From a bacterium (lineage in GTDB: Bacteria > Lindowbacteria > 2-12-FULL-62-27), in contig JACQOF010000076.1 of the NCBI GenBank assembly GCA_016202645.1, forward strand, positions 1-10,156: a stretch of 10,156 bases of DNA, given 5' to 3'. Position numbers and translations under genes: made by a program. The number at the start of each line of letters is the position of its first letter. Position 1 is the stretch's first letter. This document shows positions 3,037 to 10,156 of this stretch, in pieces. The notes under the pieces were generated by a model. It worked only from the letters and a program-made list of their open reading frames with translations, was not told where the DNA came from and did no database searches.

Positions 3037-3759
3037 TTACTTCCCTCTCTCCCTTTCTCCCTCTCTCCCTTTCTCCCTCCCATCCTCCACCAGCTTACCC
3101 CCCCTCAGCTCAAACCTCCGATCCGCGCGCGCCGAAACCGCCGGATTGTGCGTGACCATCACAATCGTCGTCCCCTCCGATCTCGCGATGCCCTCGAAAA
3201 GATCCAGCAGTTCCTCCGACGCGCGCTCGTCCAGATTGCCCGTCGGCTCGTCGGCGAAAATAATCCGTGGACCGTGCGCCAGCGCCCGCGCAACCGCCAC
3301 CCGCTGACGCTCGCCGCCCGATAACTTCTCGATCCGGCGGTGACGCAGAGCCGCAAGACCCAGCCGCTCGATGAGTCCCGAAACGCCGGGGAATCCGGGG
3401 GATCTGTTCGCCAGATCAATCGATAGGCGCACGTTCTCCTCCACGGTCAAGTCCGCCAGAAGATGATGAAACTGAAAAATCATGCCGGCCTCGCGCGCGC
3501 GGCGGGCGGACCGGCCTGGCTCACGCATTCCGTACAAATCCGAGCCGCCCCACTTCACACTCCCGCGGTCCGGCGGGAGCAGACCCGCCAGCATATGAAG
3601 CAGCGTCGTCTTCCCGCTCCCGCTCGGCCCAGATATCGACACCCACTCCCCGGCGCCGACGGCCATCCCCACACCGGACAAAACAGGACTCTCCTCCCCG
3701 CCGTTCCGGTACGCTTTGAATACGCCCTCACACTCCAATTCTCTCCCGCCTTTCTCCAT
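3037..3759 (-). CDS. LolD-type ABC transporter ATP-binding protein
   Basis: This 240-residue ABC ATPase has all motifs in order: Walker A GPSGSGKT (44-51), Q-loop Q96 in IFQFHHLL, signature LSGGERQR (146-153), Walker B IIFADE (166-171), D-loop after EPTGNLD, and switch His204 in VTHNP. Sequence and length match the LolD/MacB/FtsE-like group; LolD energises release of outer-membrane lipoproteins by LolCE. No permease gene is adjacent: the gene is flanked by a convergent DedA gene and a divergent C45 gene, so it is an orphan here and the exact subfamily stays open. The ATG at 3759 is preceded by GAGAGGGG on the coding strand. The family-like sequence ends near residue 226 (GGKLVED); the final tail [14 protein letters not shown] is encoded entirely by an octamer repeat tract and is unlikely to be ancestral. 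Confidence 0.88.
   Translation of the reverse strand: MEKGGRELECEGVFKAYRNGGEESPVLSGVGMAVGAGEWVSISGPSGSGKTTLLHMLAGLLPPDRGSVKWGGSDLYGMREPGRSARRAREAGMIFQFHHLLADLTVEENVRLSIDLANRSPGFPGVSGLIERLGLAALRHRRIEKLSGGERQRVAVARALAHGPRIIFADEPTGNLDERASEELLDLFEGIARSEGTTIVMVTHNPAVSARADRRFELRGGKLVEDGREKGREGERERGK
3041..3081. repeat. CCCTYTCT octamer tract 2, inside the ABC ATPase 3' end
   Basis: Four octamers alternating CCCTCTCT and CCCTTTCT are followed by CCCTCCC. The tract is coding on the minus strand, giving the charged tail of the ABC ATPase. Minus-strand GGG runs every 8 bases satisfy the G3N5 quadruplex pattern at least four times. Confidence 0.9.
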
Positions 3760-3800
3760 GCCCCTCTCTTATCTCCCCATCCCCGCCCTGACAAGAACAC

Positions 3801-3836
3801 CCCCTCCCCCCTTGAGGGGGAGGCCGGGAGGGGGGT
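3801..3836. repeat. C/G-rich inverted repeat (CTTGAGGGGGAGG family), copy 2
   Basis: An 8-bp stem CCTCCCCC/GGGGGAGG (3803-3810 against 3816-3823) with loop CTTGA is followed by CCGGGAGGGGGGT. It shares this core and right flank with 1371-1410. It sits in the 159-bp spacer between the divergent ABC ATPase and C45 genes, immediately beside octamer tract 3. No recognisable promoter was found in this spacer. Confidence 0.75.
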
Positions 3837-3840
3837 CTCT

Positions 3841-3880
3841 CCCTTTCTCCCTTTCTCCCTCTCTCCCTCTCTCCCTTTCT
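3841..3880. repeat. CCCTYTCT octamer tract 3
   Basis: Five consecutive octamers (CCCTTTCT twice, CCCTCTCT twice, CCCTTTCT) lie upstream of the C45 gene and downstream of the C/G-rich inverted repeat. An open frame that runs through this tract (peptide FLPFSLSPSLPFLLF) is an artefact of the repeat. Confidence 0.9.
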
Positions 3881-3918
3881 TGCTTTTTCCCCCCTCCCAA
3901 ACTACCCTCCCGCCTTCC

Positions 3919-4956
3919 ATGAAACCGGTCATCGAATTTGAAGTCTCCGGGTTTAATTATGACGTCGGGCTGGGGATCGGACGCAAATTCCGGCGCGAGA
4001 TCCGCCGCTTCGTCGCGCTCAACAACCGGGCACTCGCCGCTGAATGGACCGGGCGCGTCGGCACGCTCCAGAAAGCCCTCGATGAATCCATCGCTCGAAG
4101 CACGCACGCCTTCCCGCGATACGTCGAGGAAATCGACGGCATGGCTCACGGCGCCGGCGTGCCGTTTCGCGATATGTTCGCGCTCAACTATATCGAACTC
4201 CTCGAAATCGATGAGTCTATCGCGCGCGGGCCGGGGTCTTGCTCAACGATTGCGGCGCCGCGCAGCGGGCATTATCTCGTGGGCCATAACGAGGATTGGT
4301 CCTCAGGCAGAAATGATGTCTACGTCCTGCGTGTCCGCTACCCAACCGGCGGCGGATTCCTTTGCCTTGCGTATTACGGATACCTGCCGGGCATGAGCGT
4401 CGGGGTGAATTCGCACGGGCTCTTCCACGCGATCAATTATCTCTCCCCCAAAGACCGCCGCGTCGGGATTCCTAGAACGCTCATCACGCGCGCCATCCTC
4501 GACGCGCCGGATTTTAAATCGGCTGTGCACATCGCCAGGTCGCACTACAGGTCCTTCGGCCAGAGCATCAACCTCTTTAAACACGCCCGGTATCTGAACG
4601 TCGAAACTTCCGCCAAACGCGTCTCTCTCTCCAGACCGCGTGGCGTCGCCCTCCACACCAATCATTACATCCACTCCGATATGCTCGACATGGACTCGCC
4701 GGGCGGCCTTCAGTGGACCCTCTCGCGGATGGGGGTCGGGAAAGATTTTATCGCCAGAAATCCGAAGTTCGACGAACGCCGGATCCGCAAACTCCTCGGC
4801 TCCCGCGCGGGCGCGCCCTTCTGCTTCTATTGTACCCCGCACCCCCAAAACGACCACGTCACACTCGCCACCGCCGTCTTCGATACACGAAAACTCGGCC
4901 TCCGTATCTCCCGCGCCAACCCATCGGAGGCCCGCGGGAAATGGTTCCCGCTGTGA
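3919..4956 (+). CDS. C45-family autoproteolytic acyltransferase/hydrolase
   Basis: The 345-residue protein resembles the C45 (acyl-CoA:6-aminopenicillanate acyltransferase) group of Ntn hydrolases, which self-cleave before a catalytic Cys and then hydrolyse or form amide bonds. Key features are GPGSCSTIAAP (104-114, predicted nucleophile C108), GHNEDW (122-127, matching the conserved Asn/Asp-Trp block), GYLPGMSVGVNSHGL and a later CFYCTPHPQNDHVTLA block. The upstream frame to 3463 is discarded because it is antisense to the ABC ATPase and contains repeat-derived sequence; ATG 3919 starts the family-like sequence (MKPVIEFEVSG). No Shine-Dalgarno sequence is visible. There is no signal peptide, so it is probably cytosolic. 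It is followed by an ATP-grasp gene on the same strand, suggesting joint amide metabolism. The substrate is unknown, and bile-salt hydrolase-like or peptide-cleaving activity is also possible. Confidence 0.82.
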   Translation: MKPVIEFEVSGFNYDVGLGIGRKFRREIRRFVALNNRALAAEWTGRVGTLQKALDESIARSTHAFPRYVEEIDGMAHGAGVPFRDMFALNYIELLEIDESIARGPGSCSTIAAPRSGHYLVGHNEDWSSGRNDVYVLRVRYPTGGGFLCLAYYGYLPGMSVGVNSHGLFHAINYLSPKDRRVGIPRTLITRAILDAPDFKSAVHIARSHYRSFGQSINLFKHARYLNVETSAKRVSLSRPRGVALHTNHYIHSDMLDMDSPGGLQWTLSRMGVGKDFIARNPKFDERRIRKLLGSRAGAPFCFYCTPHPQNDHVTLATAVFDTRKLGLRISRANPSEARGKWFPL

Positions 4957-4959
4957 TGA

Positions 4960-5134
4960 GAAGTCATTTCAAAACCCCCTTCCCGCCTGAGAGGCGGGGG
5001 GGTGGCAACGGTCTGGCGCCCGAACCGGAACGGACCCTCCGAAGCCCGGGAACCGGGCGTAGGAGGGGAGTACCGGAAGGCGGACGACAGACCGTTGGCA
5101 GGACCCCCGGGTCAGGGGGTTTTGAAATGACTTC
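4960..5134. repeat. 175-bp element with perfect 21-bp terminal inverted repeats and internal hairpins
   Basis: The left arm 4960-4980 (starting GAAGTCATTTCAAAAC) is perfectly complementary to the right arm 5114-5134. Inside are hairpin CCCGCCT/AGGCGGG (4982-4988/4992-4998), a 10-bp stem CAACGGTCTG/CAGACCGTTG (5006-5015/5088-5097), stem CCCTCC/GGAGGG (5035-5040/5062-5067) and terminal hairpin GCCCGG/CCGGGC (5044-5049/5053-5058) with a GAA loop. A GAA/GTA 3x3 internal loop separates the last two stems. It starts 3 bases after the C45 stop and ends 18 bases before the ATP-grasp ATG, so it fills almost the whole spacer. It could be a miniature inverted-repeat transposon or a structured RNA; no protein is encoded and no obvious target duplication is present. 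Confidence 0.8.
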
Positions 5135-5152
5135 GAGCTTCGCGCGGCGGCC

Positions 5153-6685
5153 ATGACCACCGCGACAGCTTCGCCCCTCCGCAGCCTCTCGGCGCTGAAA
5201 AAAATCGCGCACCAGAGGCGATGGTTTCAGGGCAAACGATTCGTCTACTACGGCGCAACGGCATGCGACTCGCACATGCTCTCGCATTTCCTGCCGGTCT
5301 CGGCGGTCATCTGCGATGACGACGGCGATGAGGTGCGCACGATCATTGAGAATGCCTGGGGCGCGAAGGTCTTCTCCTACGAACGGAAAAAGCGTGTCCG
5401 GCACGGCGACCCGGAACCGTTCGAGATGTTCTTCCTCCACGACGAAGGCGACCGCATCATGAAATGTATTGGGGAATGGGACGACGATGTCTGCTTCGTG
5501 CCGTTCTCCACGACGCCTGACCTCCAGGAATTCCTGTTTCATAAGGGTCGCCATCTGCGCCTCCTCCAAAATCCCGTGATCGTGCAGAATTATTTCGATT
5601 ACAAGGCGCGCCTCGCATGGCGCGCGGCCAAACTCGGCATTCCGATTCCCCCTGAAAGCTCCCTCGGATTTCTCGGAAGCCTCAACTATGAGGAACTCAC
5701 GCAGAAATACGGAGGCGCGTTCGTCGTCCAGGTCCCGCTCTCGTCGGCCGGCATGGGCACCGATATCATCCGGTCGAAAGTGGACTTCGACAACATGGTC
5801 GCGGAAAAACAGGAAATGCTCGAGGACCGGTTCGATCGGACCCAGGTCAAAATCACCAGGTTCCTGCCGGGGCCGCCCCTCAATTGCACGGCCTCCATTT
5901 GCAACGGAGAAATCGTCCTCTCCCCGCCCTGCGTCCAGATCGTCGGCGAACCCGCGCTCACGCCCGTCCAGACTCAACACAGCGGGTCGGACTTCAGCCT
6001 GAGAGGCATTCCGCCTGAAATTCGAAAACAGATGATCGACACGATGATCAAGGTCGGCCGCTGGATGGGGGGGAATTGCTATCGGGGAAACTTCGGCATC
6101 GACTTCCTCACGACCACCGATAAATCCGGCGTGCCGGACGCGGTCTTCGTCAGCGAAATTAACGCAAGACTCGTCAGCGAATCCCAGTACATGGCGGACT
6201 TCGAAGCCATGAGGGACGTCGTGCCGCTCAGCTTCTTCCACGTCGCCGAATTCATGAATTATGAAATACGCCCCGAAGACATCCTGCGATATAACGAGGC
6301 TCTGCCCGAGATCGAAGGCTCCAACCTCATCGTCTGCACGCTCGAGGAAGGCATCTTCCGATGTCCCGGGACTCTCAAGGCCGGCCGTTACGTCTGGCGC
6401 GACAACGCCCCGCTCTGGATCGGCCCGGGAATATCCCTCTCTGACACAAAAAACTCCGAGGAATTCGTCGTCACTTCCGGCGTCCCCTGCGAAGACCTCG
6501 TCATCGGACACCCCCGATACGGCTACCTCGACATCCCCCTCTTCAACGTCATGTCCCGCGAATCCGTCCTCGACCCCAATGACTGGAAACGCCTCAACCC
6601 AAAATGGCAGTCCATCATCCACGCCCTCCGCAACGCCGTCGCCCTCGCCCCCTGCCCCCCGCGCTCCCTCAAAGACCTCCCATAA
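5153..6685 (+). CDS. ATP-grasp domain protein (probable carboxylate-amine ligase)
   Basis: The 510-residue protein has an N-terminal Rossmann-like segment (~28-150: RFVYYGATACDSHML, AVICDDDGDE) followed by an ATP-grasp fold. Visible ATP-grasp features are the nucleotide-binding strand and flexible loop FVVQVPLSSAGMGTDIIRS (190-208), the ITRFLPGPPLNCTASIC strand (~234-250), RGNFGIDFL (311-319), and the metal-binding VSEINARL (333-340, with E335, N337 and R339). A C-terminal region (~370-510) is less familiar. Such enzymes activate a carboxylate as acyl phosphate and join it to an amine or other nucleophile. The start ATG at 5153 has no Shine-Dalgarno sequence and lies just after the 175-bp inverted-repeat element, so translation might depend on that structure or on readthrough. 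Pairing with the upstream C45 gene hints at amide formation and remodelling. The substrate is not inferable. Confidence 0.82.
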   Translation: MTTATASPLRSLSALKKIAHQRRWFQGKRFVYYGATACDSHMLSHFLPVSAVICDDDGDEVRTIIENAWGAKVFSYERKKRVRHGDPEPFEMFFLHDEGDRIMKCIGEWDDDVCFVPFSTTPDLQEFLFHKGRHLRLLQNPVIVQNYFDYKARLAWRAAKLGIPIPPESSLGFLGSLNYEELTQKYGGAFVVQVPLSSAGMGTDIIRSKVDFDNMVAEKQEMLEDRFDRTQVKITRFLPGPPLNCTASICNGEIVLSPPCVQIVGEPALTPVQTQHSGSDFSLRGIPPEIRKQMIDTMIKVGRWMGGNCYRGNFGIDFLTTTDKSGVPDAVFVSEINARLVSESQYMADFEAMRDVVPLSFFHVAEFMNYEIRPEDILRYNEALPEIEGSNLIVCTLEEGIFRCPGTLKAGRYVWRDNAPLWIGPGISLSDTKNSEEFVVTSGVPCEDLVIGHPRYGYLDIPLFNVMSRESVLDPNDWKRLNPKWQSIIHALRNAVALAPCPPRSLKDLP

Positions 6686-7705: not shown

Positions 7706-7860
7706 GGCGGCGGGTGGCGCGGAGGAGATGTCCCCCGAGCGGATTTGGATGCGCCGGAAGGCCCGGACGGCCGTGAGGCGCATCCACCTCGGAGCCCCGC
7801 AGGGATGCGGGGCGAGAATGAGCTCGGGGAACTTCTCCGACAGCGACAGGACCCGCCGCC
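7706..7860 (+). other. Highly foldable intergenic region, candidate structured RNA leader
   Basis: Nested complementary segments predict one fold: GGCGGCGGGT/ACCCGCCGCC (7706-7715/7851-7860), GGAGGAG/CTTCTCC (7721-7727/7832-7838, one G-T pair) and CCCCGAGC/GCTCGGGG (7733-7740/7822-7829). These enclose two hairpins: GGATGCGCC/GGCGCATCC (7747-7755/7777-7785) and GCCCCGCA/TGCGGGGC (7794-7801/7806-7813) with a GGGA tetraloop, giving a three-way junction. The whole 279-bp spacer 7622-7900 has no convincing coding sequence; additional small stems lie at 7653-7664 and 7672-7697. It sits 40 bases upstream of the dehydroquinate synthase II start. It may be a cis-regulatory leader or a repeat insertion; I recognise no known RNA class. 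Confidence 0.6.
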
Positions 7861-8902: not shown

Positions 8903-8949
8903 CCCCCTCCCAACGATTCAGCCCTCGCCGTCTTTCTCGACCCGGTTAC

Positions 8950-9007
8950 GTCATTCCCGCGTAAGCGGGAATCCAGATACGTCATTCCCGCGTAAGCGGG
9001 AATCCAG
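8950..9007. repeat. Tandem pair of dRS3/REP-like palindromes
   Basis: Two identical 27-bp units at 8950-8976 and 8981-9007 have an 8-bp stem ATTCCCGC/GCGGGAAT and GTAA loop, separated by ATAC. They differ from the copy at 2953-2979 only in the loop (GTAA versus GAAA) and share with it the right flank CCAGTCTGC. They lie between dehydroquinate synthase II and the recombinase gene. Confidence 0.9.
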
Positions 9008-9030
9008 TCTGCCTTTTCTATAATCTCTCT

Positions 9031-9117: not shown

Positions 9118-10156
9118 GTGACTACATTCACCCTCGCGGATAACGGCACTGACACCATCAAAGTCTCGTTCACCTTCGAGAAGGCCCTTCTACCGCTCAT
9201 CAAAAGCATCCCCGGGCGCATGTGGGATAACGAAAATAAATTCTGGGCCGTCCCCAAAACCCGCGACACCATCCGGCGATTCCGTCAGACCTTCTCCGGC
9301 CATACCATTCGCATCGACCCCGCTCTCAATCACCTCCTGGGCCCTGAACCCACAACCCACGGATCGGCCGCCCCGGATGATGCTCCGGTCGACCGCCGGG
9401 AGGGCCTCAAGGACCGCAGGCTCTCTTCCGTCCGTTCTCCCGCAACCGAGCGGCGGCGGGCCGACCTCGCTGAACACGTCTCTCGTCAACTCCGCGCCCG
9501 AAAGTACAGCCCACACACGGTCAAACTCTATAAAAACATCATCGCTGACTTCTCCCGCTCCTTCTCGCGCCCCATCGAGGAATTGTCCAACGACGACCTC
9601 ACCCAATATATCCTCCATCTCATCGAGAAAAGAGACGTCTCCACGTCCCGCGTCTCTCAGGTCGTCTGCGCGCTTAAATTTATGTACGGCAAATTGTTCG
9701 ATCGCAAGGATATCGTCCTTAAACTCGACCACCCGCGCAAAGATAAAAAACTCCCGAAAGTCCTCGATCGCGATGACGTGTTGGCCATCCTCAATGCCAC
9801 CCAATCCCCCAAACACCGCCTCATCCTTGAAATCATGTACTCCTCCGGCCTCCGCGTATCCGAAGTCGCCCGCATCAAAGTTACGGACATCAACCTCTCT
9901 GACCTCTCGCTCTCAGTCAGAGCCGGCAAAGGCCGTAAAGACCGCCAAACCATGCTCTCCGAAAAATCATTGAACCTCCTCAAAGTCTTCATGGCCGGCA
10001 AATCCGCCGACGACTTCCTCTTCGAAGGCAAACCCCCGGACCAGCCCATCTCGCCAAGAACCATCCAAAAAATATTCAATCAAGCCCTCATCCGCTCTGG
10101 CATCCAAAAGAAAGCCTCTTGCCACACCTTCCGCCACAGCTTCGCCAGCCACCTCA
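9118..10156 (+). CDS. Tyrosine recombinase/integrase with HARP-like N-terminal domain (3' end outside window)
   Basis: An open frame of 346 codons runs off the window end. The GTG at 9118 is the best start, giving MTTFTLADNGTDTIKVSF. Residues 1-66 resemble the small HARP-like domain (VSFTFEKALLPLIKSIPGRMWDNENKFWAVP), known from SMARCAL1-type proteins and from some bacterial integrases. Residues ~67-114 form a basic linker. Residues ~115-205 are a SAM-like core-binding domain (SPHTVKLYKNIIADF) and ~212 onward the catalytic domain with Arg246 in SSGLRVSEV, Lys271 in AGKGRKDR, and His336/Arg339 in HTFRHSFASHL. The catalytic Tyr should lie ~30-45 residues beyond the window. It would catalyse site-specific DNA strand exchange; Xer-like, phage or integron-like roles cannot be separated here. 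No phage genes are visible nearby. Confidence 0.88.
   Translation, partial: MTTFTLADNGTDTIKVSFTFEKALLPLIKSIPGRMWDNENKFWAVPKTRDTIRRFRQTFSGHTIRIDPALNHLLGPEPTTHGSAAPDDAPVDRREGLKDRRLSSVRSPATERRRADLAEHVSRQLRARKYSPHTVKLYKNIIADFSRSFSRPIEELSNDDLTQYILHLIEKRDVSTSRVSQVVCALKFMYGKLFDRKDIVLKLDHPRKDKKLPKVLDRDDVLAILNATQSPKHRLILEIMYSSGLRVSEVARIKVTDINLSDLSLSVRAGKGRKDRQTMLSEKSLNLLKVFMAGKSADDFLFEGKPPDQPISPRTIQKIFNQALIRSGIQKKASCHTFRHSFASHL

Follow-up and report, generated by a model that had tools for sequence, protein, structure and literature searches.

Insertion sequences (ISs) of the IS427 group have been described in Paracoccus. They are 832–865 bp in length, often, or at least in some members, carry two overlapping ORFs, and are mostly flanked by 2-bp direct repeats (PMC3281130). 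Miniature inverted-repeat transposons (MITEs) commonly form long hairpins, and effects on mRNA processing have been reported for two other groups of short repeats, Correia/NEMIS and ERIC/RU-1 (PMC10969869, PMC2229807). We analysed a 10,156-nt stretch of DNA, referred to here as the window, which corresponds to contig C52 of a Lindowbacteria assembly (G000) that is 2.9 Mb long and 82% complete; this phylum is represented by three genomes in the set analysed. The window contains a 175-bp element that, judging from its sequence and that of its copies, is very probably a MITE insertion with IS5-type (IS427-type) ends.

The element is positioned at 4960–5134 in the spacer of two genes and contains no transposase. 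The two flanking genes, the parts of the element and the core-like fold at 7707–7859 described below are on the plus strand. The element begins 3 bases past the TGA at 4954–4956, and 18 bases separate its end from the ATG at 5153, as the first-pass annotation of this DNA had placed it. The left terminal inverted repeat (GAAGTCATTTCAAAACCCCCT, 4960–4980) and the right terminal inverted repeat (AGGGGGTTTTGAAATGACTTC, 5114–5134) are complementary at 21 of 21 positions, and the chance expectation for perfect 21-bp inverted repeats with a spacing within 300 bp is approximately 1e-6 for this window. The dinucleotide GA precedes (4958–4959) and follows (5135–5136) the element, a putative unstranded 2-bp target duplication, although such a pair alone has a chance of 1/16.

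The predicted minimum free energy of the element was −121.3 kcal/mol, while the mean of shuffled sequences was −75.9 kcal/mol (z −10.3), and none of 200 shuffles was as low. The nested stems previously read by eye were all present in this fold. They comprise the 5′ hairpin CCCGCCTGAGAGGCGGG (4982–4998), which connects the left end to the core and has a short hairpin as its counterpart at the equivalent position in copies from the genome G179, a 10-bp stem (CAACGGTCTG/CAGACCGTTG) and an interrupted inner hairpin. The interruption, earlier described as GAA/GTA, belongs to a conserved internal-loop module. The region at 4999–5107 is designated as the core, a structured rod.

The gene upstream of the element (3463–4956) encodes a C45/AAT-family acyltransferase/hydrolase (PF03417, 1e-24; NF040521, 2e-54), and its true start is probably later than the start of the open frame. 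The downstream gene (5153–6685) had been called an ATP-grasp gene. A likeness to ATP-grasp was retained, as the product matched NF005096 ‘biotin carboxylase’ with an E value of 3e-20, but this match was below the cutoff and a Pfam search of the gene gave no match; we thus refer to it as ATP-grasp-like. The C45 and ATP-grasp-like genes are also adjacent in the two relatives G001 and G002, whose ATP-grasp-like genes share 65% and 67% identity, respectively, with that of the window. The element is absent at both junctions: a single base separates the C45 stop codon from the ATG of the ATP-grasp-like gene in G001, and the two genes overlap in G002. Because the two flanking genes abut or overlap in both relatives, with no insert, the element is, by this sequence comparison, an insertion relative to G001 and G002. 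One reading frame is open along the full length of the element (ORF 4713–5156). The 3′ end of the element provides an ATG that opens a short frame terminating at the ATGA where the downstream gene starts; that this ATG takes part in translational coupling is speculation.

Further copies were searched for, and the copy counts given here rest on searches and on sequence stretches. G000 has another full copy with 80% identity (C1:1060–1214) and a shortened, deletion-type copy on C139. G001 carries a full copy (C33:99028–99179) and a 3′-end fragment on C24, and G002 carries an element of 87 bp in which the left end (15 bases) is the same but the interior differs. A model built from the first three full copies (R1) was run over 290 genomes, and matches outside Lindowbacteria were found in G179, in G133 and, as one match at a contig end, in G256. 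The last (L083) is a fold-back at the extreme contig end and was not considered further because it may be an assembly artefact. G179 belongs to a different small phylum (five genomes in the set) and has at least nine copies, several of which have the ends GAACTCATTTCATAACCTC within CTAG and CTAG/TA flanks. The genes adjacent to the other copies are unrelated, and the copies occur in either orientation. The 2-bp flanks are GA/GA at the window element and TA/TA in G002 and several G179 copies, but no 2-bp repeat is present at C1 (TA/GG), G001 (CA/GA) or C139 (TC/GA). Copies with the same or similar ends are therefore present in this genome, in both relatives and in another phylum, with a 2-bp repeat at some of the sites only. 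A pattern scan of genome contigs gave 91 stretches; 50 of the 80 listed were scored with R1, which matched the G001 copy (L109) alone. Neither the element nor a G179 copy gave a convincing match in blastn searches of plasmids, and scans covering approximately 400 kb of G000 and a similar length of G001 revealed no further convincing copies. A scan of viral contigs with a 17-mer of the end gave 14 matches with no close inverted partner nearby, which were judged to be chance.

When the end was combined with CTAG, the viral-contig scan gave eight matches, one of which (L244) had an inverted partner 846 bp away. This pair delimits an 866-bp IS, found in L244 and L248, with ends (CTACAAGTCATTTCATAA and CTAGAACTCATTTCATAA) that resemble the left repeat of the element. 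The IS encodes a DUF4096 and DDE_Tnp_1 transposase in two frames, and the L244 transposase matches the NCBIfam IS5 model NF033580. Remoter IS5 relatives from Deinococcus (CTAGAGATCATCCGGAAATT) and Enterobacter (AGAACCCATCCCAGAAGG) have the same general form of end; the IS of L244/L248 was the only one found with closely similar ends. A transposase of the L244 type was not found in G000, G001, G002, G179, G290 or G133 with one 148-aa query run with no positive control, and no autonomous partner with the ends of the element was found by end pattern in the incomplete G000 assembly. The IS701 family (PF13546), first suggested by the CTAG flanks, gave one match in G001 and none in the other five genomes; an earlier pattern search found no matching ends near the G001 match, and this candidate was abandoned after the IS5 link.

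The first-pass annotation had left two readings, a miniature inverted-repeat transposon or a regulatory RNA controlling the ATP-grasp gene. The empty sites in two relatives, the dispersed copies, the IS5-type ends and the putative GA/GA duplication argue strongly for the former. A riboswitch-like cis-regulatory RNA that evolved for the ATP-grasp-like gene, with the arms as its outer stem only, would account for the strong fold, the covarying stems described below and the location just upstream of a start codon. However, the element is missing at the same junction in both relatives, other copies adjoin unrelated genes in both orientations, and the ends are IS-like. Given the empty sites and the dispersal of the copies, this alternative is for the most part refuted, and we regard it as very improbable. 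Specific control of the ATP-grasp-like gene by the element is likewise unlikely, and a gene-specific RNA is unsupported because the copies adjoin different genes and the syntenic genes of the relatives lack the element.

Within the predicted MITE, the fold of the interior was examined for paired changes. Among the three Lindowbacteria copies, 14 of 56 pairs over the whole element had both bases substituted and still paired. In nine G179 copies, 17 pairs were double-changed, where the shuffled mean was 6.9 and none of 500 shuffles reached 17; this alignment, having been fitted to the model, leans towards its structure. Structures slid along the G179 alignment gave 0–4 double-changed pairs. Mean pairwise identity among the G179 copies was 0.91–0.95 in the core, 0.72–0.81 in the hinge stem and 0.62–0.85 in the ends. 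The ends were lost or decayed and the core was kept in L224, L225, L226 and L227, and in L225 the hinge stem is a different one but still pairs. Rfam searches at gathering scores gave no match for the window or for eight core loci, and permissive searches gave only matches far below threshold. Integron attC, considered for an AAC/GTT in the stem, was discarded, as AAC/GTT is absent from the copies in G179, G133 and G369.

Two asymmetric internal-loop modules were recognised in the core. M1 has the form GGGT-GR opposite NCAGG-ACCC (2 nt versus 5 nt) and is present in the cores of Lindowbacteria, G179, G133 and G369. Its short side is GG in the window (5004–5005) and GA in G179 and G133; its long side is GCAGG in the window (5098–5102) and NCAGG in aligned copies, followed by ACCC. 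In a mono-shuffle control of the scan for M1 plus stems, one match was obtained in 1.5 Mb. A viral-contig scan for the M1 pair gave 21 matches without stems, which were judged to be chance. M2 consists of an N-A mismatch, 2 bp and G[CG]A opposite GA. Its 5′ side in the window is CCGGAACGGACCCTCC (5025–5040; stem, A mismatch, 2 bp, GGA, stem) and its 3′ side is GGAGGGGAGTACCGG (5062–5076; stem, GA, 2 bp, A mismatch, stem). M2 was present in 9 of 9 Lindowbacteria and G133 cores examined, which are not nine independent cases because several G133 copies are near-identical. It occurred in 26 of 18,000 shuffled interiors, a count that is not blind, as M2 was defined after seeing the sequences. The G179 and G369 cores have no M2. 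Both modules sit on different stems in G133 from those in Lindowbacteria.

Paired changes could have another origin. Template-switch correction of quasi-palindromes in replication can yield compensatory changes without selection, and the element might then be an ordinary MITE with palindromic filler inside, long hairpins being common in MITEs (PMC10969869, PMC2229807). Such correction should, however, erase asymmetric loops, whereas M1 and M2 persist across lineages and on other stems. In addition, conservation in G179 is higher in the core than in the transposon ends, and cores are found without ends. We therefore consider filler unlikely; on our reading, the interior is not mere filler. The covariation, together with the loop modules common to several lineages, supports the earlier suggestion that the inner symmetry reflects a selected fold, at the RNA or DNA level.

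Cores without transposon ends were found with a second model (R3), built from the G179 core and run over 384 genomes. Five copies were in G133 and three in G369, genomes that are listed outside both the phylum of G000 and that of G179, and M1 is present there without terminal repeats. In 954 kb of G369, nine core copies were found in both orientations and with varied neighbours, as judged from raw ORFs. The window itself has a weaker core-like fold with M1, no M2 and no terminal repeats seen (7707–7859; R3 19.8 bits, E 0.044 in a 31-kb search), which lies between DeoC-type and DHQS-II genes and is probably an occurrence of M1 without ends. Two arrangements in G369 were recorded separately: two tandem core copies, 166 bp from start to start (L264 1338–1575; C1 9482–9727), and a core nested in a longer palindrome built of further M1-like halves (C2, approximately 116940–117130).

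These copies bear on another explanation, in which the core is a REP/REPIN-like single-stranded-DNA hairpin, moved or bound as DNA by some enzyme and inserting into or hitching with palindromes such as MITEs. The core-only copies dispersed in intergenic spacers of both G133 and G369, with orientations that vary in G369, are consistent with such a hairpin, and the flanks extend the palindrome at C139 and at one G179 copy (L082/L176). On the other hand, no linked enzyme was identified, and in most G179 cores the composite is shared in full, IS5-type ends included. We judge this explanation possible but somewhat doubtful.

Other repeats were also seen in the window. A palindromic repeat (CGTCATTCCCGCGNAAGCGGGAATCCAG) occurs in three copies (2952–2987, 8949–8984 and 8980–9015), and C-rich/G-rich inverted-repeat units (ACCCCTCCTCCCCCCTTGAGGGGGAGGAGGGGAGGGGGGT) at 1372–1411 and 3797–3836 are 90% identical. 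A tyrosine recombinase with an N-terminal extension (9118–10155) runs off the contig end; its matches to the XerA-like model NF040815 and to integron-integrase models were both below cutoff.

In the explanation that we prefer, an IS5-type transposase supplied in trans would recognise the terminal repeats, insert the element and make the 2-bp target duplication, in this case between the formerly adjacent C45 and ATP-grasp-like genes. The core would be a rod kept by selection on its fold, with the modules M1 (GR opposite NCAGG) and M2 (G[CG]A opposite GA plus the N-A mismatch), and may have been captured by the MITE or may travel with it, because the same kind of core occurs elsewhere without ends. 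It is the shape of the core, not its letters, that recurs in unrelated bacterial groups, which suggests that the fold itself does something. We tentatively propose, as its most likely action here but far less firmly than the MITE reading, that the core acts in a read-through transcript as a stable rod altering the processing or stability of the two-gene mRNA; this action is modelled on reports for Correia/NEMIS and ERIC. As an equally tentative proposal, the core may represent an undescribed structured nucleic-acid family with asymmetric internal-loop modules and changeable stems, dispersed in several phyla and packaged by IS5-type ends in Lindowbacteria and the phylum of G179. As RNA, such a core may have catalytic activity or bind a protein. 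A MITE is generally regarded as a pair of transposon ends with nothing of note inside. If the proposal is true, a MITE whose interior fold is kept across phyla despite decay of its ends would offer a traceable example of a hairpin, in the form of structured RNA or of DNA, that moves by transposition, and such a MITE would give a defined fold for functional testing.

The element resembles IS427-group ISs and their MITEs in its ends, (CTA)GAAGTCATTTCA, which are as in the IS5-family (NF033580) IS of L244, and, at some of the sites, in a flanking 2-bp repeat, GA/GA or TA/TA. It differs from these ISs in having no transposase gene and in its interior, a conserved rod that has no relation to the IS. 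It shares a covarying fold with Rfam structured RNAs, but neither the window nor the eight core loci reached a curated threshold. REP/REPIN-type repeats are likewise intergenic dispersed palindromes, and the core-only copies of G369 and G133 look like them; in contrast, the cores have the asymmetric loops GR/NCAGG and G[CG]A/GA. Correia/NEMIS of Neisseria and ERIC/RU-1 of enterobacteria are similar in architecture, being 100–200 bp, intergenic, with inverted ends and a long stable transcript hairpin. Unlike Correia/NEMIS and ERIC, the element has an interior with loop modules common to distant lineages, and its cores also occur without ends.
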